Below are positions 8,442-28,297 of a stretch of 64,000 bases of DNA, piece by piece. Numbering within the stretch: the first letter of the stretch is position 1; each line of letters opens with the position of its first letter. Made by a program: the position numbers and the translations under genes. Source of the DNA: Bacteroidota bacterium (GTDB taxonomy: Bacteria; Bacteroidota; Bacteroidia; B-17B0; Aurantibacillaceae). Under the pieces are notes generated by a model that did not search any database, was not told the DNA's origin, and saw nothing but the letters and a program-made list of their open reading frames with translations. The stretch spans positions 62,001 to 126,000 of the forward strand of contig JAUXZS010000029.1 of the NCBI GenBank assembly GCA_030692515.1, written 5' to 3'.

Positions 8442-10268
8442 TTACTCTTTGTATAATTTTTCTATGTTGTTTACAATTTTTATAACCCTTTCAAAATCCA
8501 TTCCCAAAGTATCGAGATACCATCTTATGTTTTGATATCTAGGCTGATTCTCATCTTCCACTAACTCCAGAGCTTTTTCTCTGGTTATTTGACCCTCACG
8601 AATCTGGTTACTTCGAAAAGTGTCATGCTCAGTAAATCCGGCAACCGTGTAATAAACATAGTTATAGAATGCAGCTGTTCCATCTCCAATCCTCCATGTG
8701 GTGTTGGTGTCTACGGCAAGCTCCCAACCGTAATCATTAATCAGTACAGAATTAACTAATTGCTCATCCCAACGCCAGTAATCAAATATGTGAAAATAAT
8801 CTTTTTTCTTTGTAAAACTCCTGTAATACTCGCCAGATAAGGTGTCCCAAAGGGAGGAATTAAAGTATCCTGGGCTATTTGTCATTGCTTTAAAACGTTT
8901 GAAATGATAACGCAATTGTTTCATCACACCATGACTGTATACACGATCTTCTTCAAAATCTGGTTTAATTCCTAAAAACCCTGTTTTAAAATGAGTCACT
9001 TCCAAAGGATTAATACCCCAAAGATTTAAATCTACACCCGTTTGTTTTTTCATTTCCTCTGCATACCTAAAGAAATGTTTATCGCCGGCAGTTAACATGG
9101 CCATCATTCCCAAGTTGGGTGATTTTAGCCATGCTTCTAAATTCATTCTAATATTTTTTCGTTTTAATGAAATATCTGCTGCTACAATAATGTTTTCAAC
9201 GCCTAACTCAGCGCACATCCTGCTAATATTTCTTCTTCCAAGGTCTGTAACCATTCCCCAATCGTAGGTATACGTTACAGGTCTAAGCTTTAGTTCTTTT
9301 ACAATTAAATGCAAACCATAACAACTATCTCTGCCGCCTGAAAAAGGAACTATACATTCCAAACCATTCTTTTTTCTGTAAGGCTCAACAATTTTGAATA
9401 ACTCTTCTTTCGGTTTTGGCGTGTTGCGCAACTTATAGTTAAGACAATAATTACAAACCCCCTCCTCATTAAAACGAATATAAGGCATCGTTTCTGGTAA
9501 AATACATTTTGTACATCTCTTCAAATGAAGTTTCTTGTATTGCAATAATGCCTCTTGTGTTTTATTATAATTAAATTCAGGAATTAAGTTTTCTGTTCGA
9601 ACCTTGAAGTCATTTAAATTCCATTTTAAATTTTTTAGTACAGGAACATCTATAATTTTAAAGGATTGATGAATCTGAGAAATATCCGCACATCCTATTT
9701 CTGTTAAAGCATACTTTTCGGAAGCAAAATAAGTAGCGCCCTCTTTTAATCCAGTATAAAGACTTCCATTATTTGAGATTAATAAAATTTTACCAATGTT
9801 CTGAATCAGTATTGCGCAAGAAACAACGCCAATACATTTCTTCATAATCACGTCGGCCAAATCAGTTATTGAAGAGCCATTTTTAAAATGCTCCAAAGCA
9901 ATACCGGCTATAACCTCTGAATCAATTTGATATTTCCTCTCTATTTTGAGTGTTTTCCAAATTTCCTCATCGTTTATGATGATGCCATTATGCAGCACAA
10001 AAATATCATCCCTAATTACTGGTTGATTATCAGAAAGTCCATTTGTAATTAGTCTACTATGACCCAAAACAATCGAAGAGTGATACGGCTTGATTTTATT
10101 CAAGAGTTTGTCAATATTGTAATCCGCTCTGTAAATTTGGTACTTATCATCCTTTATAAAAATCAATCCGCTGGAATCTTTTCCTCTTTGCTGAGCATGC
10201 TTCGCCAATAATTTTAAATCTTTTTTATCAACAGCTTCAGAAGCTATAATGCCAAATATTCCGCACAT
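8442..10268 (-). CDS. Glutaminase domain fused to PseA/WbpG-type sugar amidotransferase
   Basis: A 608-residue two-domain protein. Residues 1 to about 220 form an Ntn-type glutamine amidotransferase domain closer to GlmS/PurF than to AsnB: nucleophile C2 (MCGIFG), QRGKDSSG, GHSRL (R72), HNG (N94, G95) and DSE (D116). Residues about 248-600 are an N-acetyl sugar amidotransferase of the PseA/WbpG family: a zinc-ribbon-like CxxC pair (C252/C255 and C272/C275) and the ATP-binding PP-loop SGGRDS (310-315). Stand-alone PseA-type enzymes normally receive ammonia from HisH/HisF2. This one carries its own glutaminase. It likely turns an acetamido or carboxyl group of a nucleotide sugar into an amidine or amide. 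A second, unfused paralogue lies at 24437-25618. Confidence 0.85.
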   Translation of the reverse strand: MCGIFGIIASEAVDKKDLKLLAKHAQQRGKDSSGLIFIKDDKYQIYRADYNIDKLLNKIKPYHSSIVLGHSRLITNGLSDNQPVIRDDIFVLHNGIIINDEEIWKTLKIERKYQIDSEVIAGIALEHFKNGSSITDLADVIMKKCIGVVSCAILIQNIGKILLISNNGSLYTGLKEGATYFASEKYALTEIGCADISQIHQSFKIIDVPVLKNLKWNLNDFKVRTENLIPEFNYNKTQEALLQYKKLHLKRCTKCILPETMPYIRFNEEGVCNYCLNYKLRNTPKPKEELFKIVEPYRKKNGLECIVPFSGGRDSCYGLHLIVKELKLRPVTYTYDWGMVTDLGRRNISRMCAELGVENIIVAADISLKRKNIRMNLEAWLKSPNLGMMAMLTAGDKHFFRYAEEMKKQTGVDLNLWGINPLEVTHFKTGFLGIKPDFEEDRVYSHGVMKQLRYHFKRFKAMTNSPGYFNSSLWDTLSGEYYRSFTKKKDYFHIFDYWRWDEQLVNSVLINDYGWELAVDTNTTWRIGDGTAAFYNYVYYTVAGFTEHDTFRSNQIREGQITREKALELVEDENQPRYQNIRWYLDTLGMDFERVIKIVNNIEKLYKE

Positions 10269-10382
10269 AATTTATATTATTTTTAGATTTTTTATATCCC
10301 TTTAATGCAGAGACATAATTTTTTTTGAATTAAGTTTTTATATTAAAAGTAAAAGACAAAATTTTGGTTATCCATTTACTCA

Positions 10383-11294
10383 CTAATTTTTTGATTTAAT
10401 TTGTTCTATTAATTTCTTATTGTAAAAATTCACCCCTTTTTGATTTAAATGACTTGCATCTGAAAAAAGTGAGTCGCTATTTGAATGATTTAAGGTGAAA
10501 TCAAAAAAAACAATGTCGGGATATTTAGAAAGAATTTTTTGCACTTGAGGCAAATACGAATTTTGATAATAATTTTTGTAGGACGCATTCCATTTTAAGG
10601 GATGACTTGCTAGCCAGGTTTTAATATGGTTATTAGAAGCAAAATTCAACAATGAATCAAGGTATTTATAATTTCCTCCAGGTATAAACTTATTGTAGCT
10701 TAGGTTTGTATCAATCTTAAAATAAATATCTTTTTCAACGTATCCATTATAAATATAGTTTTCTTGGTAAGGTAATGGCATTGGGTTTAAATCAAACAAC
10801 CTGGAAGTCATATTATTGATACTATTAATAGTGATGTTATTTTTAAGAAATTCTAAAGCTGACTGGTTTTCATTAGCATTTTGAATTAGCATGAGGGTAG
10901 ACTCTTCAGTAACTTCTTGTAAAACTCCAGGGTAAATATCAACTATGAGGCTATGAATTTTGGACTTATTTGTTTTGATAAGCGTGTAGGAATCTTTCAT
11001 GTTTTGCCCTGAGGTGCCCATGTTAAATAATTTTATGCCTGCGGATTTAAAAATTCGTGGATCATAGCCTCTGTATGCATGAGAAGAGCCTATTACAAAA
11101 ATAGTTTTATCATCAGGCTTAAAATTTTCTAAATCATTGAACATTAATTTTGTTTGACCTCCTTCTGAAATAACATTTTCATTTACTAAAGACCATAATC
11201 TAACGCCTTTTACCTTTACAGATGATAACAACATAACAATTACTAAAAAAACAAAAATTTGTATTATGATATAGAGCGAGATGTTTTTGAGCAC
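10383..11294 (-). CDS. Membrane-anchored SGNH-type protein, partner of an MBOAT acyltransferase
   Basis: A 303-residue protein with one N-terminal membrane helix (residues 5-25) and an extracytoplasmic domain. The serine block FVIGSSHAYRGYDPRIF (about residue 75) and the C-terminal DASHLNQKG supply the Ser and Asp/His residues of an SGNH hydrolase-like fold. It overlaps the start of the upstream MBOAT gene's stop by 1 bp. Known pairs of this design are DltB/DltD and AlgI/AlgJ, where the SGNH partner finishes transfer of an acyl group to a polymer. It probably acylates the polysaccharide in the periplasm. Confidence 0.65.
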   Translation of the reverse strand: MLKNISLYIIIQIFVFLVIVMLLSSVKVKGVRLWSLVNENVISEGGQTKLMFNDLENFKPDDKTIFVIGSSHAYRGYDPRIFKSAGIKLFNMGTSGQNMKDSYTLIKTNKSKIHSLIVDIYPGVLQEVTEESTLMLIQNANENQSALEFLKNNITINSINNMTSRLFDLNPMPLPYQENYIYNGYVEKDIYFKIDTNLSYNKFIPGGNYKYLDSLLNFASNNHIKTWLASHPLKWNASYKNYYQNSYLPQVQKILSKYPDIVFFDFTLNHSNSDSLFSDASHLNQKGVNFYNKKLIEQIKSKN

Positions 11295-12724
11295 TAGAAC
11301 TGAAAGTAAATGAATTGAACCTTACCCCAAAAGCCACAGGTAACGATAAGTGTAACTAAAACAGAAAAAAGAGCGAAGGATTTCACACAAAATAAGTTAG
11401 CCTCTTTACGAATAAACTGATGAACTCTTCTATCAAAGGCTAAAAATAAAACACATACTAAAACTAGTATAATCAGAGAAGCTTTTTTTAAACCCAAGTC
11501 AGCAGGATTGAAATCAATAGTGTTATTCGAAAACATAGTTTGAATATAACTAACAGAGTCTGATAGACTATTTGCTCTAAAAAAAATCCAGGCAAATAAT
11601 ACGAGATTAAATACCACTAACTGATTTATTTTTTTTTGAATAAAGGCTGTTTTAATATATTTAAAATTTAAACTATTTTTAGGTAAGAAGTGACCAATTG
11701 AATTATACAAAGCATGTAAAGCACCCCAAATTAAAAAAGTCCAGTTAGCGCCATGCCAAATTCCACTTATTAAGAAAACATATATTTGATTTAGCACAGT
11801 TTTCTTTTTACTAATTCTACTTCCTCCGAGAGGTACATAAACATAATCTCTAAACCAGGTGCTTAATGAAATATGCCACCTACTCCAAAATTCTTTTATT
11901 GATTGAGAAATATAAGGCAGATTAAAGTTTTCCATTAATTTAAAACCCATACACTTAGCCGAACCAATTGCCATATCGGAATAACCAGAAAAATCGCAAT
12001 AAATTTGAATGCTAAAAAGAAATGCTCCGGCATAAAGGTAAAGACTATTCATGTGCGAATAATTTTCGAATATATTATTTGTAATAACATTTATGTTGTC
12101 GGCAATTACAACTTTTTTAAATAAACCCCAAACCATTAATCGTAATCCCATTGTAAATTGACTCCAATTAAAATTATGTTTTTCATAAAATTGGTGTATT
12201 ACATTTTGAGGTCGTTCAATTGGACCAGCAACCAATTGCGGATAAAACATAACATACAAACTATAGATTCCAAAATGGCGCTCGGCTTTTTGTTTACCCC
12301 AATAAACTTCAATAACATAACTTAAACTTTGAAACGTATGAAATGAAAGACCTACAGGAAGAGCAATGGAAATAAGATCTAATTTCCAATCCTCTTGAAT
12401 GAAACTACCTAGATAGTTAATATTTTGGGCTGCGAAATTATAATACTTAAAAATAAAAAGTAATAAAACGGTTGAAATTATGCTGGCTACTAAATAATAT
12501 TTTTTGTGTTTTTGATTATTAGAATTTTCAATTAAAATACCTGCAGAATAATCGATAACGATTGCTAAAATTAAAATAAAAAGATAATAAGGAATAAAGT
12601 ACGAATAGAAATAAACACTCGCCCCTAAAAGCCATACCCATCTGTAACTGTGCGGTAATAAATAATATACCAGCGTTACTAGCGGAAAAAAGAGAAAAAG
12701 AAAATCGAAGGTGTTAAAGAGCAA
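11294..12724 (-). CDS. MBOAT family O-acyltransferase
   Basis: A 476-residue polytopic protein of the AlgI/DltB branch. Diagnostic segments are PQLVAGPIERP, FCDFSGYSDMAIG-like (YCDFSGYSDMAIGSAK), FWSRWHISLSTWFRDYVYVPLGG and the catalytic-His segment SGIWHGANWTFLIWG. It moves an acyl group (often acetyl) across the membrane for O-acylation of a polysaccharide. It is coupled to the SGNH gene downstream and is one of two such pairs in the operon (the other is at 30413-32841). Confidence 0.9.
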   Translation of the reverse strand: MLFNTFDFLFLFFPLVTLVYYLLPHSYRWVWLLGASVYFYSYFIPYYLFILILAIVIDYSAGILIENSNNQKHKKYYLVASIISTVLLLFIFKYYNFAAQNINYLGSFIQEDWKLDLISIALPVGLSFHTFQSLSYVIEVYWGKQKAERHFGIYSLYVMFYPQLVAGPIERPQNVIHQFYEKHNFNWSQFTMGLRLMVWGLFKKVVIADNINVITNNIFENYSHMNSLYLYAGAFLFSIQIYCDFSGYSDMAIGSAKCMGFKLMENFNLPYISQSIKEFWSRWHISLSTWFRDYVYVPLGGSRISKKKTVLNQIYVFLISGIWHGANWTFLIWGALHALYNSIGHFLPKNSLNFKYIKTAFIQKKINQLVVFNLVLFAWIFFRANSLSDSVSYIQTMFSNNTIDFNPADLGLKKASLIILVLVCVLFLAFDRRVHQFIRKEANLFCVKSFALFSVLVTLIVTCGFWGKVQFIYFQF

Positions 12725-12744
12725 AGTTTTGTATACTTATTTTT

Positions 12745-13146
12745 TTAAAAGCCAGAACGTAATCGATAAAAGGAAGTTGAAAGACCATGGCTACGGTCGG
12801 TATAATAAATTTGAATAGGTAAATCAGAGCCGGTAATTTTTTTTCCTTTGTAGTCTTCGCCTAAAAATCGAATGGTTATGTTTTTAGTTTTAAGAATTTC
12901 TAAAAGCTCCTCTTCTGAATTATAGATTAGAACTTCGTCAACATATCTGCATGCCTTCATGATGGTAACACGCTCTTCGATTGTAAATATTGGTTTTTTC
13001 TTACCCGGATTAATAGTTTCTGAAATGTTTTCTGCTTTATTAAGTGCTACAATTAAATAATCGCAATTGTTTTTACATTCTTGTAGCATCATAACATGAC
13101 CTGCATGAAAAAGATCAAAAACACCACATGTAAATCCAATTTTCAT
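12745..13146 (-). CDS. Cytidylyltransferase-like nucleotidyltransferase (HldE-C / TagD type)
   Basis: A 133-residue single-domain enzyme. It has the GVFDLFHAGHVMML motif (HxGH) near residues 8-21 and RSHGLSTS in place of the family RTxGISTT near the end. Such proteins transfer CMP or AMP to a sugar phosphate or polyol phosphate (HldE C-terminal domain, TagD). It starts one base after the epimerase gene ends and follows a kinase and SIS isomerase gene, so an NDP-heptose-like product is plausible. The nucleotide (CTP or ATP) cannot be told. Confidence 0.8.
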   Translation of the reverse strand: MKIGFTCGVFDLFHAGHVMMLQECKNNCDYLIVALNKAENISETINPGKKKPIFTIEERVTIMKACRYVDEVLIYNSEEELLEILKTKNITIRFLGEDYKGKKITGSDLPIQIYYTDRSHGLSTSFYRLRSGF

Positions 13147-14061
13147 TTAACTATTTTCTTTAATAAAATCGCTAATGTTATGCTCAGGAAACCAATTCAA
13201 CAAGTCTTTTGCTTTTGTGATATCAGCGAAAGTAATATCAGATTCTCCTTCTCGTTTTGGAATAAATTCATAGTTAGGAGAAATTTTCTGCGCCAATTCC
13301 AACACACTGAGTGTATCACCGTTTCCAATATTAAAGGCTGTATTCAATATCTTATCATTAATGGCAGCTAAATAATTTGCTTTGGCTAAATCATACACGT
13401 GAATAAAATCACGTTTTTGTGAGCCATCTCCTGTTACCAAAGGAACCTCTCCGTTCTGGTGTCGGTATAAAAATATACCTACTACACTGCTATAAGCGTT
13501 AAATTTATTTGCGGGATTAAAGCTTCGTGGACCATAAGGATTAAAGTACCTGAGGTTCACATAATTTAAAGGGTAACGGGTGCTTAATAATTCTAGATAT
13601 TTTTCTACTTCATACTTTTGAAAAGCGTAAGGGCTTAAGCAATCTATTTCTTCAGTTTCGGGAGTAGGAATAATTTTAGGAGTGCCGTAAATTGCACTTG
13701 AACTGCTGAAAACAAATTTCGGAAAATAATTTTCTTTAATCATTAACTCAACCAAATGCATTGAGCTCGTTAGATTTTCAGTTATATGTTCTGTAACAAA
13801 TTCAAAGCTTGGTTGTATTCGAGGTAAGGCTGCTAAATGAAAAATGCAATCGTATTTTTTTAACGATTGCATATTACCTATAGTGTCTTCAATAAAAACG
13901 AACCTAGAATTATTTAAATGATTTGAAACATTATTTTTATTTCCAGTACTTAGATTGTCTATTCCATCTATATGCCAGTTTGTTTTTTCGATTAAATAAT
14001 CTAAGAGATTAGAACCAATAAAGCCTGCAACACCAGTAATTAAAACATTATTTATTTGCAT
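13147..14061 (-). CDS. NAD-dependent epimerase/dehydratase (extended SDR)
   Basis: A 304-residue extended SDR: TGVAGFIGSNLLDYL binds NAD, SSSSAIYG and YAFQK provide the Ser and Tyr/Lys catalytic residues, and RYFNPYGPR is the GalE-like substrate loop. Its start overlaps the SIS gene by 14 bp. In the kinase-SIS-epimerase-nucleotidyltransferase block it may act as a sugar-nucleotide epimerase (HldD-like role or C4 epimerase). Sequence does not decide which. Confidence 0.85.
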   Translation of the reverse strand: MQINNVLITGVAGFIGSNLLDYLIEKTNWHIDGIDNLSTGNKNNVSNHLNNSRFVFIEDTIGNMQSLKKYDCIFHLAALPRIQPSFEFVTEHITENLTSSMHLVELMIKENYFPKFVFSSSSAIYGTPKIIPTPETEEIDCLSPYAFQKYEVEKYLELLSTRYPLNYVNLRYFNPYGPRSFNPANKFNAYSSVVGIFLYRHQNGEVPLVTGDGSQKRDFIHVYDLAKANYLAAINDKILNTAFNIGNGDTLSVLELAQKISPNYEFIPKREGESDITFADITKAKDLLNWFPEHNISDFIKENS

Positions 14062-14572
14062 GTAACTCGTCTAAAATAATGTGTAGAATCGTGTGGTGGT
14101 AGCATTCAACTATACCAAAGCTATTTGAATCTAACCAAAAATTAATTTTTCCTTTACCGTTTAATTTATTAGTTTTTTCAAAACCAGATAAAGTAATTAC
14201 ATCTCCTCCTAAAGAATTAACAAAGTCAACTGAATTATTAATGTTAGCAGATTTACCTGAACTACTAATTGCAATTAGAAGATCGCCTTTTGTAAAATGA
14301 ATTTTTAACCATTCGACCATCGCATTTTCATATCCATAATCATTTGCAAAGCAAGTAATCAAAGCACTATCGCTGAAGGCAAATGTTGGAAACCGCGCAA
14401 TTTTCGCAAAGTCTTCCATCATGTGAGAACAAATAGCATTTGAACCACCGTTGCCGATAAAAAAAATGCGTTTACACTCTTTTATCAAGTTAACAGACTC
14501 AAAAATTTGGTTGTTAATCGTTTCAGAATTCAAAAATTCTTGAAACTTTAATTTATACGTGTTTAGCGGCAT
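14048..14572 (-). CDS. SIS-domain sugar phosphate isomerase (GmhA-like)
   Basis: A 174-residue single SIS domain. FIGNGGSNAICSHMMEDFAK and LLIAISSSGKSANI are the phosphosugar-binding segments of GmhA-type sedoheptulose-7-phosphate isomerases, and YHHTILHIILDEL resembles the GmhA C-terminus. It overlaps the upstream kinase gene by 20 bp and the downstream epimerase by 14 bp. It likely makes a heptose 7-phosphate for the neighbouring kinase. Gene symbol gmhA is possible, but the substrate is not certain. Confidence 0.75.
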   Translation of the reverse strand: MPLNTYKLKFQEFLNSETINNQIFESVNLIKECKRIFFIGNGGSNAICSHMMEDFAKIARFPTFAFSDSALITCFANDYGYENAMVEWLKIHFTKGDLLIAISSSGKSANINNSVDFVNSLGGDVITLSGFEKTNKLNGKGKINFWLDSNSFGIVECYHHTILHIILDELHANK

Positions 14573-15425
14573 GATTTAATAATAATTCTTTTGTTACTGA
14601 TTTTTCGTTACACAACCAGGTTGTTGACAAGCTGGCCGCAAGTGAAGGTACTAATAATTTATCTTTTATTTTATCATCTAAAGACGCGCATAAAGAAGCG
14701 AAAGCGAAAAAAGTATCGCCCGCGCCGATGGTATCTACAATATCGGTTTTAAAAGATTTTCGTGTATTAAACTCCTTGCCGCTTGTGTATGTGGAACCCT
14801 GTTTGCCCGTTGTAACGAATAAATGTTCTGAATTTAATTCATAATTAAAAATATCGATAATATCTTGTGGTTTTGGGTTCGAAATTCTTTTATTTACTTG
14901 CAAACTTGCTTCACGCAAATCAATACAAGCACTTTTCTTTTTTAAATTCTTCCACTTTGAGATGCGATTAAAACCAAAATTATTTGAATTGGTTTGGCAC
15001 ATTAAATGAAAGCCATCTGTAATAGTTAATTTATCGCAAAAGCCATGACCAAAATCTGCTACAATTACTACATCGTATTTTGAAGTGTCAATATTAATTT
15101 CCTCAAAATTCTCTGTTTCAAATTTATTTATTTCTACATGTTTCTTTTTATCACTAACATCAACATAACGTGTTTTTACAATCTCATTATTTGTATTAGT
15201 AATTACACTCACTTTCTTTACAAAATCATAAATATGATTTGCGATTGCTTGCGCGCCGCCTTGTTGAATTATTTTAGTTCCTTCTAATTTAAAAACAGGG
15301 CAGATAGATTTCATAGATTGACCTTCGTACGAGACATCTATAAACTCATCCACAATTGTTTCGCCAACAACTAAAACATTCAAGTTTTTTATTTCATCAA
15401 AAAATAATTCCAGTTCTTTTAACAT
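14553..15425 (-). CDS. PfkB family sugar kinase (HldA/HldE-N-like)
   Basis: A 290-residue ribokinase-like enzyme. The N-terminal VVGETIVDEFI and the C-terminal DTIGAGDTFFAFASL (anion hole and catalytic Asp) are diagnostic of PfkB kinases. The GQSMKSICPVFKLE stretch parallels the HldE kinase domain, which phosphorylates D-glycero-D-manno-heptose 7-phosphate at O1. It is next to a GmhA-like isomerase and an HldE-C-like nucleotidyltransferase, so the two HldE activities seem to be split into separate genes here. Confidence 0.75.
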   Translation of the reverse strand: MLKELELFFDEIKNLNVLVVGETIVDEFIDVSYEGQSMKSICPVFKLEGTKIIQQGGAQAIANHIYDFVKKVSVITNTNNEIVKTRYVDVSDKKKHVEINKFETENFEEINIDTSKYDVVIVADFGHGFCDKLTITDGFHLMCQTNSNNFGFNRISKWKNLKKKSACIDLREASLQVNKRISNPKPQDIIDIFNYELNSEHLFVTTGKQGSTYTSGKEFNTRKSFKTDIVDTIGAGDTFFAFASLCASLDDKIKDKLLVPSLAASLSTTWLCNEKSVTKELLLNHAAKHV

Positions 15426-15427
15426 AA

Positions 15428-16417: not shown

Positions 16418-16551
16418 AAAAGTTGCAATTGATTAATTAATCTTTTTGTTTGATATTCGAAGGTGTGCTCATGAATGTTGTATTTTATCTTGATGATGGG
16501 TTATTATTTTTTTTATTATTAAATGAAACATTATTAGCCTCTATATGATTC

Positions 16552-17568: not shown

Positions 17569-17629
17569 TTAAATTATTGAGTTAATTCTTTGATTTAAAA
17601 AATGGAATAAAACATGAAGTAGCATGAAT

Positions 17630-18613
17630 TTATAACTGGTTTTCATACCAATTAACCGTGATTTTTAATCCATTTATAATATCTACTTCCGGTTTATAAT
17701 TCAATAGATTTTTAGCTTTTGATATGTCAGCAAAACTATCCTTAATATCTCCTTTTCTTTCGCTATGAAATTCTGGTTGAATTTTAGAATTTAAAGTTTT
17801 AGCAATTATTCTAAATAATTCATTCAAAGAGGTTGTGCCTCCAAAAGCAATATTAAAAACCTGATTAATAGCTTCCTTGTTTTCTGTCATTGCAGCCAAT
17901 AGATTTGCCTGAACAACATTTTCAATAAAAGTAAAATCCCTGGTGGTACTGCCATCACCAAATATTCTGGGCGAACGCTTGTTTAACAGTTCATTAATAA
18001 ATATTGGAATAACCGCAGCGTAAGGTCCGTTTATATTCTGCTTTGGACCAAACACATTAAAATATCGCAATCCAATAACTTCCAATCCATATGTTTTGTA
18101 AAAAACATCAGCGTACAATTCATTCGCTTTTTTTGTAACAGCGTAAGGCGATAATAACTCTCCAGTCTTAACTTCCACTTTTGGCATCGTTGTATCGTTA
18201 CCGTAAACTGATGAGGACGATGCGTAAACGAAGCGTTTGACCTTATTGGCAACACTGGCATACAACATATTTAGGAACCCGTTAATGTTGGTATTATTTG
18301 TTGTAATAGGATCAGCTATACTTCTTGGTACACTTCCCAAAGCTGCCTGATGAAGAACATAATCAATATTATGAGTAGCGTTTTTACAATCTTCAAATAC
18401 AGTAATATCGCCAGTTATTAATTTGAATGAAGGGTTCGAAAAAAACTCCTGAATGTTTGCCTCATACCCCGTAGAGAAATTATCAAGCACCCGTACTTCT
18501 TTTGCATTGTTCTTAAGTAAGAACCCAATCAAGTTACTCCCTATAAAGCCTGCTCCTCCGGTTACTAAAAATGATTTTTGTGGGATTTGAGATAATAAGT
18601 TCTCTGGAAACAT
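17630..18613 (-). CDS. SDR family UDP-sugar epimerase (WbpP/GalE-like)
   Basis: A 327-residue extended SDR with VTGGAGFIGSNLIGFL, SSSSVYG, YAVTKK and RYFNVFGPKQ. The layout matches WbpP-type UDP-GlcNAc(A) C4-epimerases, which usually have this length and the PYAAVIPIFI segment. It probably supplies UDP-GalNAc or UDP-GalNAcA, the latter being a natural substrate for the adjacent AsnB-like amidotransferase. That link is inference. The gap to the asnB gene is 5 bp. Confidence 0.85.
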   Translation of the reverse strand: MFPENLLSQIPQKSFLVTGGAGFIGSNLIGFLLKNNAKEVRVLDNFSTGYEANIQEFFSNPSFKLITGDITVFEDCKNATHNIDYVLHQAALGSVPRSIADPITTNNTNINGFLNMLYASVANKVKRFVYASSSSVYGNDTTMPKVEVKTGELLSPYAVTKKANELYADVFYKTYGLEVIGLRYFNVFGPKQNINGPYAAVIPIFINELLNKRSPRIFGDGSTTRDFTFIENVVQANLLAAMTENKEAINQVFNIAFGGTTSLNELFRIIAKTLNSKIQPEFHSERKGDIKDSFADISKAKNLLNYKPEVDIINGLKITVNWYENQL

Positions 18614-20448: not shown

Positions 20449-20484
20449 AAACTTTTAGGATTATATAGTAGTGTAGAAATGTTT

Positions 20485-21714: not shown

Positions 21715-21733
21715 TTTAAATGTTCTTGAACCA

Positions 21734-23071
21734 TCAATTAGCTTTAGGGCTATTTCTATTTAGAAATAGCTCCCGCCTGAAGTTTACTTTATTCAATAAC
21801 TTTTGGTAAAAAATTATATCCTGAAAGAAAAGAATAAATTTCTTTACTCTTTTTTTAATTTTTAGCGAATCAGGTTTTGTTGAATCAATAGCAGATGTAA
21901 TGATCTTTAAGGGTTTGTCAATCGCTGTTTTAATATACCATTCATAAGCTAACCCAGCTTTTCTATCCGCCTCTGATGGATTTAAAAAGCATTGATTTAA
22001 AGCTTCGTAAATCTGCTCCTCATTAGCTGCATCATACATGGGATATAAATCGGATTCTCGGTTTTGATATAATTTATCATTTCTGTAATGAATTACGGGT
22101 TTTTTCATTGCTAGAAATTCGAAAATTGCGCCATACGAAAACCAACTATAATTACCAATTTCACCAATTCCCACATCTGCATATGTAATCATCCCCATTA
22201 AATTTTTTCGTTGCGTAATTGGAAACCAAAATACATTGTTTACTATTCCAAGGTCTTGAACCAGTTTTTTTGAATCACTAACATCGGAGCCATATTCAAA
22301 AACAATGAGGCAGGAATTAGCATTTACTTTTTTAACAAAATTACTAAATGCCCTGAAAATTTTATCATTGCCTTTCTGACTCCATTCATCCACTGGGTTT
22401 TTCCAGGATTGCCTGATATGATTAAACGCTATAAAACTAAAATTCGTTCTGAGCTTTTCCATTTCATCTCTATAAAGGCATTGTTGCCTGAGGTATTCAG
22501 CATTTTTCCAACTAAACTCAGGTGTGTATAAAAACGGCAATGTGCAATAGTGCCTTTTTCCTTTTAGTTGAAAGCGCTCAATAAGTTTTTCAAATTTGTC
22601 ATTTGTTACATCCCAAATAATATCTTTTGCTCGCTCAATACCTCTTCTTTGATATTTTGCAATTTGTTTTTTTTGTAAGTTAACATAATCACTTCTCGAA
22701 TTATCCCTCTCAAAAAAAGGTAATTCATAAAAATCCGAACCATAAGGAATTACCATGTTTATGTTTACAGCTGAATAAGTTAGATAAGCTGTAGAGAATC
22801 CGCAAGCAATAATATAATCATAGTCTTCAAAAATTGAGAATATTTTTCTTTTATTAATCTTTAAAATATCTTCGTTAAGAATATTAACTTCATAAACTAT
22901 ATTATTTATGCTGTCTAAGTCAAAGGTGTCGGACTGGGGTTTGAAATGCTCAACCTCATTTACCAGAAATAAATCTGCTGAATATCCCAAATTTCTCAAA
23001 TGTCTTACAACAGAAAAGAAATTATTATTCATGTTCCCAACGCAGGCTATTTTAATTTCTTTATTTTTCAC
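21734..23071 (-). CDS. Probable GT-B glycosyltransferase
   Basis: A 445-residue protein of Rossmann-like appearance (IACVGNMNNNFFSVVRHLRNLGY at the N-terminus; a donor-like region with FVKKVNANSCLIVFEYG, FWFPITQRKNLMGMITYADVGIG and FEFLAMKKPVIHYR). The pattern is of a GT4-like enzyme, but with a poorly conserved donor loop. A basic amphipathic C-terminal segment could bind the membrane. It overlaps the hisF2 gene by 11 bp and may act on the amidinated sugar made by that trio (inference). Confidence 0.6.
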   Translation of the reverse strand: MKNKEIKIACVGNMNNNFFSVVRHLRNLGYSADLFLVNEVEHFKPQSDTFDLDSINNIVYEVNILNEDILKINKRKIFSIFEDYDYIIACGFSTAYLTYSAVNINMVIPYGSDFYELPFFERDNSRSDYVNLQKKQIAKYQRRGIERAKDIIWDVTNDKFEKLIERFQLKGKRHYCTLPFLYTPEFSWKNAEYLRQQCLYRDEMEKLRTNFSFIAFNHIRQSWKNPVDEWSQKGNDKIFRAFSNFVKKVNANSCLIVFEYGSDVSDSKKLVQDLGIVNNVFWFPITQRKNLMGMITYADVGIGEIGNYSWFSYGAIFEFLAMKKPVIHYRNDKLYQNRESDLYPMYDAANEEQIYEALNQCFLNPSEADRKAGLAYEWYIKTAIDKPLKIITSAIDSTKPDSLKIKKRVKKFILFFQDIIFYQKLLNKVNFRRELFLNRNSPKAN

Positions 23072-23828
23072 TTAAACTTTTTTCAAGCAATTTTCGGTCA
23101 GGGAAATTAATTAAAACACCAAAATCTTTTTTCTGATAAACTACCATACTTCCCATTGCAATAGCATTTGCACCACCCTGCTTTATACCTGCAACCATAT
23201 GCTCCATACTGCCAGCGCCGCCATGAGCTATTACCGGTACTTTTGATACTGAGGTAATTTGTTTAATCAAATCAATGTCTAAACCTTTCCAAGTGCCTTC
23301 ATTATCAACACTGGTTATTAAAATTTCACCAACTCCCGCTTCTTCAATTTTTTTTACCCACTCCTCAATAGAGTAATTATGCTTAGTACCTGCTGAATTA
23401 GAAACAACTTGAGCTTTTCCGAAAAAATTCTTTTTTACATCTATTACACCTATTACAGCTTGTGAACCATAGACCTCTGAAATTTGTTTTACCAGATTTA
23501 AATTGCTGTGTAAGGAGGTGTTTATTGCTACCTTTTCAATACCTATATTAAAAATTCGTTGCGCTTGCTCAAACGTTTTAATACCACCGCCATAGGCCAA
23601 TGGCATAAAACATTCGTTCGCAATTTCACTCAATAATTTATAATTAGGCTCTTTATTTTTCGGTGTTGCTTCAATGTCTAAAAAAATAAGTTCATCCACT
23701 TCTTTTTCGTTAAAGATCCGAACGGTGTTTATTGGATCACCAACATATTTTGGATTTTTAAAATTAACCGTTTTAACCAATCCGTTATCCTTTAATAACA
23801 AACAAGGTATGTATCTTATAAGTAACAT
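23061..23828 (-). CDS. hisF: HisF2/AglZ-type amidotransferase synthase subunit
   Basis: A 255-residue TIM barrel of the HisF family. The start RYIPCLLLKDNGLVKTVNF with PKYVGDP and NEKEVDELIFLD matches the HisF2 branch found with PseA/WbpG. The Asp that is D11 in true HisF (motif CLDVKD) is Leu here (L11), while the second catalytic Asp (VIDVK, equivalent of D130) is kept. With L11 the enzyme should not make imidazole glycerol phosphate, but it can still channel ammonia from HisH to the PP-loop partner. It abuts hisH (no gap) in the operon. Confidence 0.85.
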   Translation of the reverse strand: MLLIRYIPCLLLKDNGLVKTVNFKNPKYVGDPINTVRIFNEKEVDELIFLDIEATPKNKEPNYKLLSEIANECFMPLAYGGGIKTFEQAQRIFNIGIEKVAINTSLHSNLNLVKQISEVYGSQAVIGVIDVKKNFFGKAQVVSNSAGTKHNYSIEEWVKKIEEAGVGEILITSVDNEGTWKGLDIDLIKQITSVSKVPVIAHGGAGSMEHMVAGIKQGGANAIAMGSMVVYQKKDFGVLINFPDRKLLEKSLSEK

Positions 23829-24440
23829 TTATAATTTTGAGAAATTGCTTAATAATTGCATACCGTACTTATGACTTTTTTCAGGATGAAACTGCGTACC
23901 ATACACATTATCGTTTTGGATGGCAGCATCAAAGTCTCCACCATAATCTGTTCTTAATATTGAATTTGTATTTTCATCACAAACTACTTTGTAAGAATGC
24001 ACAAAATAAAATCGGTGCTCAGGGGTAAACTCCTCTGTTAATTTGCTTGGGGTATTTACATTTACAAAATTCCAACCCATGTGAGGTATTTTTAAATTCG
24101 AATTTTCCTCAAACTTAAATTTAATTGTTTTAGCAGATACCAAATCCAAGCCCTTTAAAATTCCTTCTTCGCTGCTTCTGGTTAACAATTGCATACCTAA
24201 ACAAATTCCGAGGAAAGGTATTTTATCCACTTTAGCTTTATGAACTAAAACTGAACGTAAATTTAACTCGTCAATTTTTTGAATTGCAGAATCGAATGCG
24301 CCAACACCAGGCAATAAAATTTTTTCAGCTTGCTCAATTTCGTGGATATCTGAGGTGATCTTACACGGAACGCCAATACGTTTAAGCATATTTTGAACAG
24401 AACCCAAATTACCTAAACCGTAATTAATAATTGTTATCAT
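23829..24440 (-). CDS. hisH: HisH-type glutaminase subunit for sugar amidination
   Basis: A 203-residue class I glutamine amidotransferase with the catalytic triad visible: Cys in GICLGMQL, and His/Glu in QFHPEKS. NYGLGNLGSVQNML and GVGAFDSAI are typical of HisH. It overlaps the start of the PseA-like gene's stop region by 4 bp and abuts hisF2, so the three are translationally coupled. In this setting it releases ammonia for the sugar amidotransferase rather than for histidine synthesis (inference from context). Confidence 0.85.
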   Translation of the reverse strand: MITIINYGLGNLGSVQNMLKRIGVPCKITSDIHEIEQAEKILLPGVGAFDSAIQKIDELNLRSVLVHKAKVDKIPFLGICLGMQLLTRSSEEGILKGLDLVSAKTIKFKFEENSNLKIPHMGWNFVNVNTPSKLTEEFTPEHRFYFVHSYKVVCDENTNSILRTDYGGDFDAAIQNDNVYGTQFHPEKSHKYGMQLLSNFSKL

Positions 24441-25618
24441 TTAGTATAACTAACAGAAAAACAATATTTCATATAAAAACTTTTTGGCACCAGATTTGAT
24501 TTGTATAGTATTGCAAATATAGGCCGCATGCGCTCGAAACGTTTTTTATAAGTAGGATATTCATACCAATACTTAGGTTTAGCGGTCATTACTTTTTCAT
24601 ACTCTTCATCGCTAAAGTGCATTCGCTTTTTAATATAATCTATCAAACCTTCTTCAATAAAAGGAGAAGTTTCATAATATTCTTTTATGGCAACATCTCT
24701 ATCCATTTTTCCATTGCGTACTTTTGCTGCAAGCGTATTATTTCTATAATCAATATGGAATTTTTGAGGAAAATAAACACTGTGACTAAAAGCTGTCATA
24801 CGATTTTCTAAATGATGACCGCCATAATCCTGCCAGCCATATTTTTCTTTTAATAATATTTTAGCTTCCTCTTTATTATAATTTGAATACCAATAAGGAC
24901 GAATTTTTTTTATTTTTTTTACTGCAATCCATTTCATAAAAGTCCAAAACGGCATATTTGGATATGTTTTAAGTTTCATTTGGCCAAATTGTTTATGTAT
25001 AGATGCAATGTATTTTCCATCAAAATAATTTTTACCTAAAGGAGATATCCCCTCTTCGATAAATGAATGCCCTTCTAATACGTATTTAATTCCAAATTTA
25101 TCTGCTGCACGGTACATTGTTTCGGCGAGCGCAATATCTGTTGAAGCATCCAATTCAGAAACATTGGACAAAAAGAAAGCTCGATAAATATCATCCACTT
25201 CATTATTATCAACTACAATTGTATAAAGGTCGATATTTAATTTATTAGTAATGCTTGTAATATTTTGTGTAGCTATTGCTGTATTATATGTATTATCATA
25301 ATGAACCGCCAGTGGCCTTAATCCATTTTCGATAGCCCAGTGAAGCATATATGATGAATCGGTTCCACCACTTACACCAACAACACAATCGTATTTTTTA
25401 TTTTTTCCGGTAACTTTTATTTCCTGAATGATCGTAGAAATTAGCTGCTCGCCTTTAGAATTTCCGGTACCATACTCGGAAATAAGATCATCCGTCATTT
25501 TACAATAATTACAAATACCTTTTTCATTAAAAGTTATTGAAGGAACAGAGTTATCGTAAATACATCTACTGCAAATTTTGTAATCAGGTGCCAAACTTCT
25601 TTTTTTTGTCAATTCCAT
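24437..25618 (-). CDS. N-acetyl sugar amidotransferase (PseA/WbpG family)
   Basis: A 393-residue protein with paired CxxC (C16/C19 and C36/C39), PP-loop SGGTDS (83-88) and the LRPLAVHYDN / VLEGHSFIEEG segments of the family. Such enzymes, with HisH and HisF2, replace an N-acetyl oxygen by ammonia-derived nitrogen to give an acetamidino sugar (pseudaminic, legionaminic or diamino-uronic acids in known cases). No neu/pse/leg synthase is in the window, so the target sugar is more likely a nucleotide-linked amino sugar. The catalytic half of the fused protein at 8442-10268 is its paralogue. Confidence 0.85.
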   Translation of the reverse strand: MELTKKRSLAPDYKICSRCIYDNSVPSITFNEKGICNYCKMTDDLISEYGTGNSKGEQLISTIIQEIKVTGKNKKYDCVVGVSGGTDSSYMLHWAIENGLRPLAVHYDNTYNTAIATQNITSITNKLNIDLYTIVVDNNEVDDIYRAFFLSNVSELDASTDIALAETMYRAADKFGIKYVLEGHSFIEEGISPLGKNYFDGKYIASIHKQFGQMKLKTYPNMPFWTFMKWIAVKKIKKIRPYWYSNYNKEEAKILLKEKYGWQDYGGHHLENRMTAFSHSVYFPQKFHIDYRNNTLAAKVRNGKMDRDVAIKEYYETSPFIEEGLIDYIKKRMHFSDEEYEKVMTAKPKYWYEYPTYKKRFERMRPIFAILYKSNLVPKSFYMKYCFSVSYTK

Positions 25619-25619
25619 T

Positions 25620-26399
25620 TTACTCTATTCTTGCTTTTTCTATTATTAATTTTTTTCCATCGACAGTGCGGATAAAAGCGCCTGGATATGGGGAACTTTG
25701 AGCCCTAATAAAATTATACAAGTCTTTTGCAGTTTTTGTAAGATCGATTTCGCCATCATCGGGTTTACGTTGCGGATAAATTTTAATTTTACTTTTATCC
25801 TGGGGTGTAAATTTTATCGTAGAAATATTCTGTAAGACTTTCAATAAAATATTTTTTGAAGCAATGGTTACTTTTTCATATACTTCTTTTATGGAATCAT
25901 TTTCTCCTATTACTATTTTTTCTTGTTCGATAATATCTCCATCGTCTATTCCATCATCTAACTTAAATAAAGTTATCCCGGTTTCTTTTTCGCCATTTAT
26001 TATTGCCCAAACCAATGGAGCACCACCTGCATAATCCGGCAGCATAGATGCATGAATACCCCATGCTCCGTATTTTGCAAGATCTCTAATCTTTTTTGGC
26101 ACCATATAATACCAACCCATAATTAAAATAACATCGGGGTTAATACTTTCTATAATTTCAGAGTAATCACTTGTTATTTTTCCTTCTTGTGAGGAGTCGA
26201 TATAATAACAAGGAATATTGTTTTTTGTTGCAACAATTTCAAGTTCAGAATAATTGTAGTTTTTTACTTTAGTATCGCTGTATGAAATGCCAAATTCTTG
26301 TGGAATTGTAAATAAAGCGCCAACATCAATATTATTATTTAAAAGATGTGTTAGTATATCTTCGCTAAATTTTGTTGCTCCAAAAAAGATTGCTTTCAT
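25620..26399 (-). CDS. Sugar N-formyltransferase-like protein (Fmt fold)
   Basis: A protein of 259 residues when started at MKAIFFGATKF. A longer frame reaches 26459 but would overlap asnB by 64 bp. The chosen ATG at 26399 gives a 4-bp ATGA overlap with the asnB stop. The formyltransferase core shows GIHASMLPDYAGGAPLVWA and DDGIDDGDII: the catalytic His and Asp are present, but the usual Asn two residues before the His is Gly. It probably transfers formyl from N10-formyl-THF to an amino sugar made by the nearby DegT aminotransferase. It is not the housekeeping Met-tRNA formyltransferase, which is longer and has a C-terminal OB domain. Confidence 0.7.
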   Translation of the reverse strand: MKAIFFGATKFSEDILTHLLNNNIDVGALFTIPQEFGISYSDTKVKNYNYSELEIVATKNNIPCYYIDSSQEGKITSDYSEIIESINPDVILIMGWYYMVPKKIRDLAKYGAWGIHASMLPDYAGGAPLVWAIINGEKETGITLFKLDDGIDDGDIIEQEKIVIGENDSIKEVYEKVTIASKNILLKVLQNISTIKFTPQDKSKIKIYPQRKPDDGEIDLTKTAKDLYNFIRAQSSPYPGAFIRTVDGKKLIIEKARIE

Positions 26400-28297
26400 T
26401 CTACTTTTTCTCCGTTTAAAAAAATACGACACCACCATTCGAAATTCAAAAAACTCCAAATTAATAAACGATGATTTATTTTATCGTTAATATGCTCATT
26501 AACTATTTTTTTTACGTAATCGCGATTAATAAACTCTGACGATACATTTTTTTTACCCAAAAGCAATTCTTTTACATAGTCTGCATTTTCGCCGCGATAC
26601 CAGCTTTCATCGGGCGCACTAAAGCCTTGTTTCTTTCTATTTAAAATACTTTCGGGCATAAAACTTGTCATGGCTTTACGCAAAACATTTTTACCATCAT
26701 CAAAATCGCGATAGCTAGCTATTTGTTTTGACTTTGAACTGTCGTTCTCATTTATTTTTTTTATTTCTGCTGTTAAATTACCAAGTTTATGTTTAACAGG
26801 TATTTTTTGGGCAAAGTTTACCAGATCATTATCCATAAACGGAAAACGTTCTTCTAAACCATTAGCCATGCTTAGTTTATCACCAACTAAAAACAAACTA
26901 GGTAAGAATGTTTTAATTTCAAAATACAATGAATTATTAATATGTTGTTCGGGTGTATCGTATTGCAATTTATTATTAAAAGTGAAAACCCGTTCAAATA
27001 TTTCGCGTGGTTCATTATGATTTAGTTTATTAAATATGCTAGCGCTAAATAATTGTTGCTTTTCGTTTTCAGGCACTAAGCGTTGCCAAAATCCGTAATA
27101 TTGATCAAAAAATTCTTTTTGATTTAAGGCATTAAAAACTCTGTAATAGCGCCATGGATATCCGCCATATAATTCATCACCACCGGTACCTTGCAAACAC
27201 ACTTTTACAAATTTTGAAGCTAAACGAGAGATATAATAATTAGGATAACTCATTCCAACTTTTAAATCTTCTAAATGATAAACTACTTTTGGTAGGCTCC
27301 AAGCTAAATCTCCCGCATTTATTACCTGTTCATAGTGTTCGGTTTTAAAAGCGTTTGCCATTAATTCTGCATCTCGTCTTTCATCATAATTTGCTTCAAC
27401 ACCTGTTACACTGCTCATGTCAAAACCACAAGTAAATGTTGCCATTCGAGGAATCATAGTTGAGCCAACCGCTGTAATTGCACCACTATCCATTCCTCCA
27501 GATAGATACGAACCAACAGGAACATCAGCCACCATTTGGCGCTTTACTGCTTGTTGAAATAATCGTAAGGTCTCATCCTTAGCATCATCAAAAGACATGG
27601 CTTCATCCGTCTTTGAAAAATCATAATCCCACCAACTATTATGAACCAATTGTTTAAAATCATTTCCAATTTCAATAGTATTGGCAGGTGGTATCATGGC
27701 CACGCCTTTAAACAAAGTACGGAACGAAAATAAATTCTGAAATGTAAAATATTCATTTAGTGCATTCAAATCAACATCAACCTTAAAACTTGGATGTTTT
27801 AAAAACGCTTTAATTTCTGAGCTGAACAAGAATGTATTTTCATTATACCAATAATAAAGCGGCTTAATTCCAAACTTATCTCTACTTAAATATACCTTTC
27901 TATTACTATGATTGAACGCGCCAATGGCAAACATTCCATTTAACCGTTCAAAAAATATAACACCGTATGCCTCAAGCCCTTCAACAATAACTTCAGTATC
28001 TGTAGTAGATGAAAATGTATGTCCTTTATTTATAAGTTCTTGCTTAAGTTCTTTAAAATTATAAATACAACCATTAAAAACGATGGTCCATTTTTTTGTT
28101 TTTGAGTGCATAGGCTGCGCGCCATTATCAGAAACATCGATTATTGATAAACGACGATGACCGAAAGATATATTTCCATCAATAAAAATACCTCTACCGT
28201 CAGGGCCGCGATGAGCAATAGCATCTGTCATTGATGAAATTATAGATTCATCAGTGCGCTGATTATTTAAATTAATTATGCCTGTTATTCCGCACAT
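26396..28297 (-). CDS. asnB: AsnB-type glutamine-hydrolysing amidotransferase (copy 2)
   Basis: A 633-residue protein with class II glutaminase (C2 in MCGITG, IAHRGPDG, GHRRLSI, FNGCIYN, STTDTEVI) and synthetase domain (PP-loop YLSGGMDSGA, CLQGTGGDELYGGYPW, EERFPFMDNDL). It is of the family used in polysaccharide clusters and differs from copy 1 in the YNG to FNG glutaminase loop and in a longer C-terminus. Placed between a methyltransferase and the formyltransferase. It likely amidates a carboxyl on a sugar or on a sugar-bound group. Confidence 0.85.
   Translation of the reverse strand: MCGITGIINLNNQRTDESIISSMTDAIAHRGPDGRGIFIDGNISFGHRRLSIIDVSDNGAQPMHSKTKKWTIVFNGCIYNFKELKQELINKGHTFSSTTDTEVIVEGLEAYGVIFFERLNGMFAIGAFNHSNRKVYLSRDKFGIKPLYYWYNENTFLFSSEIKAFLKHPSFKVDVDLNALNEYFTFQNLFSFRTLFKGVAMIPPANTIEIGNDFKQLVHNSWWDYDFSKTDEAMSFDDAKDETLRLFQQAVKRQMVADVPVGSYLSGGMDSGAITAVGSTMIPRMATFTCGFDMSSVTGVEANYDERRDAELMANAFKTEHYEQVINAGDLAWSLPKVVYHLEDLKVGMSYPNYYISRLASKFVKVCLQGTGGDELYGGYPWRYYRVFNALNQKEFFDQYYGFWQRLVPENEKQQLFSASIFNKLNHNEPREIFERVFTFNNKLQYDTPEQHINNSLYFEIKTFLPSLFLVGDKLSMANGLEERFPFMDNDLVNFAQKIPVKHKLGNLTAEIKKINENDSSKSKQIASYRDFDDGKNVLRKAMTSFMPESILNRKKQGFSAPDESWYRGENADYVKELLLGKKNVSSEFINRDYVKKIVNEHINDKINHRLLIWSFLNFEWWCRIFLNGEKVE

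Follow-up and report, generated by a model that had tools for sequence, protein, structure and literature searches.

A glutaminase fused to a WbuX-like domain, a candidate one-chain sugar-amidine synthase, in a Bacteroidota polysaccharide locus with four glutamine-dependent nitrogen-transfer systems

Why does one surface polysaccharide locus carry four glutamine-dependent nitrogen-transfer systems, and do all of them decorate the same polymer? The window, a 64,000-nucleotide stretch of a Bacteroidota genome, contains an ABC-exported (Wzm/Wzt) surface polysaccharide locus on the minus strand, as are all of its features given below. The initial annotation listed two AsnB-type enzymes, a HisH/HisF2/PseA trio and a glutaminase-PseA fusion, and counted them as four separate systems in one locus. 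All six open reading frames are present with exactly the coordinates reported here. Family models, together with the key motifs found in all four systems by a pattern-based check of the catalytic residues, bear out this count.

Three modules, which relatives carry apart from one another, make up this mosaic locus, and each brings a glutamine-dependent nitrogen step of its own. At one end lie an UpxY antiterminator (36007-36522), a small protein without a Pfam match (36610-37182) and a Wzc-like kinase (37292-39670), next to Wzm (35138-36001). Module A is Wzt-SDR-aminotransferase-AsnB2, then an acyl gene, with PseA/HisH/HisF2. It contains Wzt (33838-35133), an SDR epimerase/dehydratase (32845-33816), a DegT/PseC/ArnB-type aminotransferase (29257-30408), AsnB2 (26396-28297), the N-acetyl sugar amidotransferase PseA/WbuX (24437-25618), the class I glutaminase HisH (23829-24440) and its ammonia-channel partner HisF2 (23061-23828). 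Among these genes are also found a second MBOAT (31360-32841) with a neighbour protein without a family match (30413-31360), a class I SAM methyltransferase (28301-29257) and a formyltransferase family protein (25620-26459). Module B, formed by AsnB1 (18619-20448) and a WbpP/TviC-type UDP-HexNAc(A) 4-epimerase (17630-18613; top solved relative WbpP 1sb8, 330 bits), is most likely a WbpS-like uronamide step. Module C is the fusion (8442-10268) beside a UDP-GlcNAc 2-epimerase family gene (5933-7036). A GT4-like glycosyltransferase (7127-8338) lies directly downstream of the fusion, and a weakly GT-like protein (4806-5936) is the last gene of the module. Modules B and C are separated by heptose-like NDP-sugar genes (nucleotidyltransferase, SDR, GmhA-like isomerase and kinase, 12745-15425), which score below curated cut-offs except for a generic nucleotidyltransferase domain, and by an MBOAT O-acyltransferase (11294-12724) with a neighbour protein without a family match (10383-11294).

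Known acetamidino systems consist of three proteins, a synthetase, a glutaminase and an ammonia channel; in P. aeruginosa O5, HisH2 and HisF2 are the partners of WbpG in such a system. PseA of the window, with HisH and HisF2 encoded adjacent to it, represents the same system by family models and gene order. HisF2 scores 353 bits against the AglZ/HisF2 model NF038364 (cut-off 310), HisH 231 bits against TIGR01855 (cut-off 105) and PseA 216.5 bits against the WbuX model TIGR03573 (cut-off 203.2), all from NCBIfam; E-values for the named family models range from 1e-41 to 1e-146. By pattern search, PseA has the PP-loop SGGxDS and the tetracysteine, and HisH has the Cys, His and Glu stretches. HisF2 shows a Leu at the site of the first Asp of catalytic HisF. 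Since 22 of the 23 HisF2 starts compared by eye share this Leu (the remaining one has Gln), it is read as normal for HisF2. Only 4 of 61 WbuX genes, among them that of the window, have a formyltransferase-like gene at a distance of at most 2.5 kb, and this rarity weakens the idea that PseA acts on a formamido sugar.

Both AsnB enzymes exceed the asparagine-synthase cut-off of 267 bits (TIGR01536, NCBIfam), AsnB1 with 489 bits and AsnB2 with 438 bits. They show the Met-Cys start, R, N-G and D of class II glutaminases and the PP-loop SGGxDS, as does the fusion. On these scores they could be ordinary asparagine synthetases, which is nevertheless very improbable, as either enzyme has a conserved group of orthologues in sugar loci, marked by a motif particular to that group. 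The motifs, SGDGGDE in AsnB1 and QGTGGDE in AsnB2, both lack the Glu that E. coli AsnB has in SGEGxDE. AsnB2 as a decayed copy was ruled out: its odd motif is common to its 8 orthologues among 66 AsnB ORFs, a set that includes repeats from overlapping loci. Besides these two, four AsnB-type genes of the genome pass the cut-off, and one of the four is a fusion with WbuX. The nearest known enzymes are WbpS of P. gingivalis (PGN_1234) and P. aeruginosa O6 and WbqG of E. coli O121; TIGR03108 (eps_aminotran_1) is the family assigned to WbpS (PMC7468200). AsnB1 best matches TIGR03108 and adjoins a WbpP-type epimerase, but its 589.3 bits stay below the cut-off of 816.9, and AsnB2 forms a different orthologous group. 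AsnB1 may thus work like WbpS, a likeness of function rather than identity. Both enzymes of a WbpS-type uronamide route are available, the 4-epimerase in the window and a TviB-like 6-dehydrogenase on another contig, C66 (481.6 bits, below the TviB cut-off of 592 and above the general NDP-sugar dehydrogenase cut-off). Module B would most likely make a GalNAcA-type uronamide.

The fusion (608 aa) consists of a class II glutaminase of the GlmS/PurF type (residues 1-194 by NCBIfam, ~1-210 as a domain) and a WbuX-like PP-loop/tetracysteine domain (250-590 by NCBIfam, ~246-608 as a domain). The architecture in the initial annotation was right, yet PseA and the second domain are only distantly related, the latter scoring 143.5 bits against the TIGR03573 cut-off of 203.2. 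In the predicted model (pLDDT 86, pTM 0.87), residues 2-209 align to the GlmS glutaminase 1xff (Z 23.0, 206 residues, rmsd 2.7) and residues 246-608 to LpNASAT, PDB 8WEX (Z 22.5, 325 residues, rmsd 4.2), with 21% identity over the alignment. The available text of PMC10607449 describes no glutaminase domain for LpNASAT. According to the same source, WbpG of P. aeruginosa O5 and WbuX of E. coli O145 belong to acetamidino sugar systems, and the fusion shares with them the tetracysteine, the PP-loop and the predicted fold. Among the matches listed from the openly available literature, no title or abstract start is on a glutaminase-NASAT fusion. The E. coli records of the fusion are labelled glucosamine-6-phosphate synthase. 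This identity was ruled out, as only the glutaminase domain is shared with GlmS: no isomerase (SIS) domain was found, Pfam shows GATase domains alone, and the score against the GlmS model TIGR01135 is 67.5 bits for a cut-off of 418.

We tentatively favour reading the fusion, within the three-module locus, as a single polypeptide that does the work of WbpG/HisH2/HisF2 on 2,3-diacetamido-uronic acids. Its N-terminal Cys glutaminase would split off ammonia from glutamine; the NASAT-like PP-loop domain joined to it would use ATP to activate the acceptor and add the ammonia. With both domains in one chain, no HisH/HisF2 would be needed. The acceptor is most likely UDP-ManNAc3NAcA or UDP-GlcNAc3NAcA and the product, which we infer to be an amidine rather than an amide, most likely an acetamidino sugar of the ManNAc3NAmA type. 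This sugar would be handed to the glycosyltransferase encoded next to the fusion. Such a single-chain enzyme, if real, would be easier to make and study than the three-protein systems.

The second domain differs from WbpG and its relatives. Besides having a GlmS/PurF-type glutaminase attached in place of HisH/HisF2, it falls into a clade of its own, set off by a long branch (37/37 fusion domains vs 68/68 others in a tree; 14 of its fusion domains were a random draw from the named loci, and the remaining ones came from the window, annotated records and the G genomes), and it carries a TTWRIGDGT block instead of the YGGHH stretch of PseA. Together with the score below the WbuX cut-off, this makes a different acceptor or a carboxamide product possible. 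In the latter case, the fusion would make the C6 carboxamide (uronamide) of a 2,3-diacetamido-uronic acid, like AsnB/WbpS. A class II glutaminase joined to a PP-loop domain is indeed the AsnB layout, and HisF2 and WbuX, also present in 16 of the best 80 of 484 fusion loci, would then supply the amidine. We consider this rather unlikely, as in the predicted model the second domain has the LpNASAT fold over its whole length, and the tetracysteine is kept.

There are 484 relatives of the fusion in species genomes, and the best 80 of these were used for all counts of fusion loci. ORF calling lost the fusion in five of the 80 (L127, L134, L135, L153, L157), and in G138, to longer opposite-strand ORFs, which makes the fusion counts minimum values. 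There is some overlap between loci (L088, L090 and L091, for example, share their contigs with G026, G015 and G014). In the 75 ORFs read, MCG, HNG, the tetracysteine and SGGRDS are always kept, and HSRLxTNG in 73. HisF2, WbuX and AsnB are all absent from the examined flanks of 42 of the 80 loci, and from 23 of the 54 for which 19 kb or more of sequence was available, which would fit an enzyme that needs no partners. In 48/71, the gene that follows is from one of two GT4-like families. For comparison, 40 HisF2 loci of relatives were used (the top 43 places minus the window's own genome, G000, and minus G034:C17 and G009:C40, which had been chosen for their fusion). WbpD-like genes occur in 26/80 fusion loci vs 1/40 HisF2 loci and WbpE-like genes in 32/80 vs 4/40. 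The WbpI-like epimerase is not enriched (13/80 vs 6/40), and WbpB-like matches are few (12/80 vs 3/40). Outside annotated loci, the names WbpA-E, PglC, PglD and PglF were assigned by eye or similarity.

PglC-, PglD-, DegT- and PglF-like components were counted in 45, 43, 55 and 33 of these 80 loci. In many loci, the fusion is followed by genes for a sugar transferase, an acetyltransferase, DegT and a large epimerase, which would fit another acceptor, and on an annotated Agrobacterium plasmid a sugar transferase, an acetyltransferase and a DegT aminotransferase come after the glycosyltransferase of the fusion. Action on a bacillosamine-type or other initiating sugar is still improbable, since none of these genes follows the fusion in E. 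coli or lies downstream of it in the window.

The E. coli homologue, 66% identical, argues for a diacetamido-uronic acid as acceptor. In strain Z1323CEC0003, the galF-gnd interval encodes Gfo/Idh, TviB, an acyltransferase, DegT, Wzx, Wzy, a GT4, WecB, the fusion and another GT4. The sugar genes beside the fusion in this minimal locus are those of the ManNAc3NAcA pathway only, and no HisH/HisF was found near it except in the his operon. A (CTCTG)8 repeat lies inside the 5' transposase, and a CTCTG repeat is described as a mark of E. albertii O1 (PMC5622975). By this repeat the locus may be of E. albertii O1 type, although its 8 copies fall outside the 11-73 reported for E. albertii O1. The O antigen of E. 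albertii O1 reportedly resembles that of P. aeruginosa O5, to judge from the title of the structure paper. E. albertii O1 is cited for ManNAc3NAcA (PMC10622841) and P. aeruginosa O5 carries an amidine (PMC10607449), a likeness that also speaks against a carboxamide. The presence of the fusion in an E. coli O-antigen locus makes its job testable there. If the amidine reading is true, it would give a function to a family of hundreds of relatives, whose labels were wrong or missing in the five records inspected, and a missing rule for gene-to-structure prediction.

The same acceptor could be made in the genome of the window. Homologues of WbpA/D/E/B/I, 53/49/43/33/36.5% identical to those of the E. 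coli locus, make up by homology (33-53% identity) the Wbp set for UDP-ManNAc3NAcA. This set is split, with WbpA/B/D/E on C66 and the 2-epimerase in the window. The latter (wecB) scores higher with the solved relative 4neq (264 bits) than with WbpI-type 2-epimerases (219 bits), CapG and others (at most 166 bits).

Module A raises the question of export. The mechanism of Wzm/Wzt systems with a cargo-binding Wzt_C domain is known. The window Wzt has this domain (residues 278-402, 65.1 bits, cut-off 30.4), and judging from the genes around it, the residue recognised would be an amidated amino sugar. The Wzt-C domains score 74-305 bits against that of the window in 16 loci with AsnB2 and the aminotransferase, 43-45 bits in three with AsnB2 but no aminotransferase, and 0-95.5 bits in 12 without AsnB2 (0 meaning no hit at E 1; L211, the same gene as L237, G171, the same as L202, and the window were dropped). 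The 95.5 bits belong to a single locus, L179. At an ATPase-domain identity of 65-78%, the difference has a p of 0.0004 (11 vs 7 loci). The cargo domain thus tracks module A, which may build the sugar recognised by Wzt, most likely an amidated, amidinated amino sugar.

Linkage could also cause this association, as Wzt-C is encoded beside module A. Recombination inside wzt would then carry the 3' end along with its neighbours. A Wzt is present in the examined piece of 11 of the 16 new AsnB2 loci (and absent from it in the other five), and in every one of the 11 the SDR gene directly adjoins the part encoding Wzt-C. Physical linkage only is plausible without being probable; it does not by itself predict the 43-45 bits of the three loci that have SDR and AsnB2 by Wzt and no aminotransferase. 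If the link is causal, it would identify the genes responsible for the export signal on ABC-exported glycans of Bacteroidota. The full proposal is that the fusion is an unnamed pan-bacterial one-chain glutamine-dependent sugar-amidine synthase, replacing WbpG/HisH2/HisF2 on UDP-2,3-diacetamido-uronic acids and making the E. albertii O1-type amidine, and that Wzt-SDR-aminotransferase-AsnB2 writes an amidated sugar read by the Wzt cargo domain as export signal. That both parts hold is unlikely.

These data bear on the suggestion of the initial annotation that the repeat receives nitrogen from each of the four systems, which would make the polymer heavily amidated and neutral or positive in charge. 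The families naturally point to both amide and amidine chemistry, and the two occur together in published glycans, as in T. forsythia (PMC6120980) and in V. vulnificus YJ016, whose repeat carries a uronamide and an acetimidoyl group (PMC3210612). All copies keep their motifs on the same strand of one locus. AsnB2, however, mostly follows Wzt-SDR and travels with a gene adjoining Wzt (in L247, neither SDR nor aminotransferase is nearby), and the cargo domain tracks it, so the target of AsnB2 may be a single recognised sugar and not each repeat. A heavily amidated polymer of unusual charge appears doubtful.

Such a density of nitrogen genes had also been thought rare, which does not hold among relatives. 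The 40 HisF2 loci (at most 20 kb each, ~10 kb around, many ending at contig ends) have at least one AsnB in 14 cases, at least two in six and at least three in two; the three of L180 include a 193-aa fragment at the border of the sequence. Adding G034:C17 and G009:C40 gives at least one AsnB in 15/42 and still six with two, and no fusion lies within 10 kb of HisF2 in these 42. In the same genus, G018 and G014 carry HisH/HisF2, WbuX, two to three AsnB and the fusion within 31-42 kb.

About 30 genes form a run in the window; it opens with a Wzc-like kinase (37292-39670), continues through UpxY, Wzm and Wzt and closes with a weakly matching glycosyltransferase (GT, 4806-5936). The six nitrogen-transfer genes named in the initial annotation are present, all on the minus strand: two AsnB-type genes (AsnB1, 18619-20448; AsnB2, 26396-28297), HisF2/HisH/PseA (23061-25618) and the fusion of a glutaminase with a WbuX-like domain (8442-10268). 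The glutaminase and PP-loop motifs sought were found in every copy, and the finding of four systems is thus not refuted by this check of key residues. The window genome comprises 4.33 Mb in 68 contigs, with the window at C20:62001-126000. T9SS-type matches in the window are weak and fall below the cut-offs, but agree with its placement in Bacteroidota.

The fusion is 608 aa long, and its predicted model matches the GlmS/PurF glutaminases and, over residues 246-608, LpNASAT. By a hand count, 22 of 199 relatives' genomes, the window's own included, have a match above 370 bits to the fusion or its second domain. In 21 of the 22 fetched loci (L007-L028) it is a single ORF of 603-684 aa with the MCG, tetracysteine and SGGRDS motifs; the 22nd (L023) starts at a contig end. 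Among species-level genomes, 484 stretches encode relatives (E-value 1e-3 or better), the best 80 of which are 62-87% identical and come from Bacteroidota, Pseudomonas, Xenorhabdus, Vibrio, Devosia, Planctomycetota and others. Five public records label the fusion as "glucosamine 6-phosphate synthetase" (three), "hypothetical protein" (one) or "7-cyano-7-deazaguanine synthase" (one).

In a midpoint-rooted tree of 105 domains, 37 fusion domains stand apart from the 68 others, with a support of 0.85 on the fusion side. Two AsnB-WbuX fusions are placed among the 68, so the joining of a glutaminase and a WbuX-type domain seems to have happened on two or more occasions. The window PseA/HisH/HisF2 genes are a member of the known acetamidino system. 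AsnB1 would work like WbpS, yet it scores below the WbpS model cut-off. The fusion lies outside the WbuX family by the curated model and looks like a self-sufficient relative of it. Uronamide and amidine together in one glycan have already been described (PMC3210612, PMC6120980), and a published Sphingomonas cluster combines WbuX, HisF2 and HisH with an amidotransferase of the exosortase type (PMC11340318). What is new, as far as searches of open-access literature show, is that the fusion constitutes an enzyme of its own, widespread and with an acceptor that can be tested.

This acceptor is suggested by E. coli, in which the fusion was found in 2 of 5426 genomes at the search sensitivity used. 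The O-antigen locus, from galF to gnd, contains Gfo/Idh, TviB, an acyltransferase, DegT, Wzx, Wzy, two GT4s, WecB and the fusion, besides which there are only transposase remnants. We read the first four as WbpB, WbpA, WbpD and WbpE, and the HisH/HisF matches near this locus are the his operon. Judging from the title of its structure paper, the E. albertii O1 antigen reportedly resembles the P. aeruginosa O5 O antigen. The E. albertii O1 clusters are described with 11-73 copies of a CTCTG repeat in the 5' transposase and with transposases also in the central part (PMC5622975); in the E. coli locus, a (CTCTG)8 repeat sits within the annotated 5' transposase, and a central transposase remnant is also found. 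ManNAc3NAcA occurs in E. albertii (PMC10622841), and WbpG makes ManNAc3NAmA in P. aeruginosa O5 (PMC10607449). If O1 carries a ManNAc3NAmA-type amidine, the fusion would be the sole candidate amidine maker in the E. coli locus.

Homologues of all five Wbp enzymes (WbpA, B, D, E and I) are encoded in the window genome; the WbpI-like gene lies two positions downstream of the fusion. With E. coli queries, and between sets unlike in taxonomy, the best 80 of the 484 fusion loci were compared with 40 HisF2 loci: WbpD-like genes occur in 26/80 versus 1/40 (Fisher p 1e-4), WbpE-like in 32/80 versus 4/40 (p 6e-4) and WbpA-like in 14/80 versus 1/40, with little or no difference for WbpB-like (12/80 versus 3/40) and WbpI-like genes (13/80 versus 6/40).

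On comparison of loci, the locus is divided into three modules. Module A reads Wzm-Wzt-SDR-(MBOAT, partner)-aminotransferase-(methyltransferase)-AsnB2-variable acyl gene-PseA-HisH-HisF2, module B GT-AsnB1-TviC, and module C GT-heptose-like genes-MBOAT-partner-fusion-GT-wecB-GT. Module C is found in the window and in the relatives G009 and G018, and in G026 as far as the contig end. The heptose-like set (nucleotidyltransferase, SDR, GmhA-like isomerase and kinase; 12745-15425) also adjoins the fusion in these three same-genus genomes. The stretches 10383-12724 and 30413-32841 each contain an MBOAT acyltransferase and, next to it, a protein of ~300 aa that matches no family. A formyltransferase family protein (25620-26459) has a GIHASMLP stretch; the residue before x-H is G in four and N in three of the seven members with this stretch readable. 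The group transferred by G-type members may thus be other than formyl.

AsnB1 and AsnB2 fall into two different orthologous groups. Among 66 AsnB-type ORFs, QGTGGDE is present in nine, all above 1000 bits against AsnB2, and SGDGGDE in nine, eight of them above 830 bits against AsnB1 and the ninth in locus L111; 42 have other motifs and six no motif. AsnB2 orthologues (E-value 1e-200 or better) occur in 27 of 199 genomes, own genome counted. At L184:11693-17870, a GT20485-like and AsnB1-like pair is found twice in tandem, a duplicated glycosyltransferase-amidotransferase pair.

The rare density claimed for the four systems is not supported. ORFs around 40 high-scoring HisF2 places in relatives (up to 10 kb per side) were scored with HMMs from window and related proteins: at least one AsnB is present in 14/40, at least two in 6/40 and at least three in 2/40 (L180, L184), and the fusion in none within this distance. 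Within the fetched pieces of the best 80 of 484 fusion loci, 18 contain HisF2, 21 one or more AsnB and three two or more; none combines HisF2 with two AsnB. Comparable sets exist in the same genus: G018 has HisH, HisF2, two AsnB, WbuX and the fusion across ~31 kb, and G014 HisH, HisF2, two WbuX, three AsnB and the fusion across ~42 kb, the WbuX genes of both not being beside HisH/HisF2. The relative G007 has the fusion, two AsnB and HisH/HisF2-like genes, and G009 keeps the run PseA-HisH-HisF2-GT-AsnB1-TviC-GT2-GT-heptose-like genes-MBOAT-partner-fusion-GT-(GT2)-wecB-GT. On this evidence, four systems in one locus are uncommon but not unique.

In a first set of loci, Wzt C-terminal domains like that of the window occur mainly where AsnB2 is present; Wzts without AsnB2 gave weak matches in 4/12, the best (L179) at 95.5 bits. 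A second set consisted of 16 additional AsnB2 loci, none used earlier. Wzt is retained in 11, in all 11 directly followed by the SDR gene, and its C-terminal domain scores 86-187 bits against the window with the aminotransferase (n=8) and 43-45 without (n=3). Among the five in which Wzt is missing, L247 also has no SDR and no aminotransferase within its piece. Over both sets, the scores are 74-305 bits in 16 loci with AsnB2 and aminotransferase versus 0-95.5 in 12 AsnB2-less loci. At an ATPase-domain identity of 65-78%, one-sided Mann-Whitney tests gave p 0.0004 (11 versus 7 loci) and, with the three aminotransferase-less loci added, p 8e-5 (11 versus 10), values to be taken as a guide, since the loci are related, the genes are neighbours and the split by aminotransferase was noticed post hoc. 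Other Wzt_C transporters, like that of E. coli O9a, recognise their sugar, and by analogy the window domain would recognise the sugar made by module A.

WbuX-like domains also occur in other combinations. A second cluster of the window genome (G000:C19, L005:2674-5688) encodes an AsnB-WbuX fusion as a single 1004-aa ORF, the WbuX part of which lacks the tetracysteine; a similar fusion, likewise without it, lies at the end of contig G030:C251. Amid very long ORFs, L221:36-4274 (G045:C85; also L258:14036-18274) encodes a nonribosomal peptide synthetase with Condensation (5-439), AMP-binding (468-812), WbuX (903-1221) and PP-binding (1311-1374) domains. Its WbuX-like domain, between adenylation core and carrier domain, scores 137.5 bits, below the cut-off, has the tetracysteine and SGGKDS, and might add an amidine to the peptide. 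In L225:2167-4377, L226:2164-4500 and L223:2005-4104, WbuX domains follow long N-terminal parts, which we guess to be glycosyltransferases; that of L225, the one searched, has no Pfam match. A 1080-aa protein at L157:1655-4897 joins AsnB with a GT4-like glycosyltransferase, a hint of coupling between AsnB and GT. A 1069-aa protein (L081:3686-6895) has HisH at residues 439-633 and a GT4-like C-terminal end.
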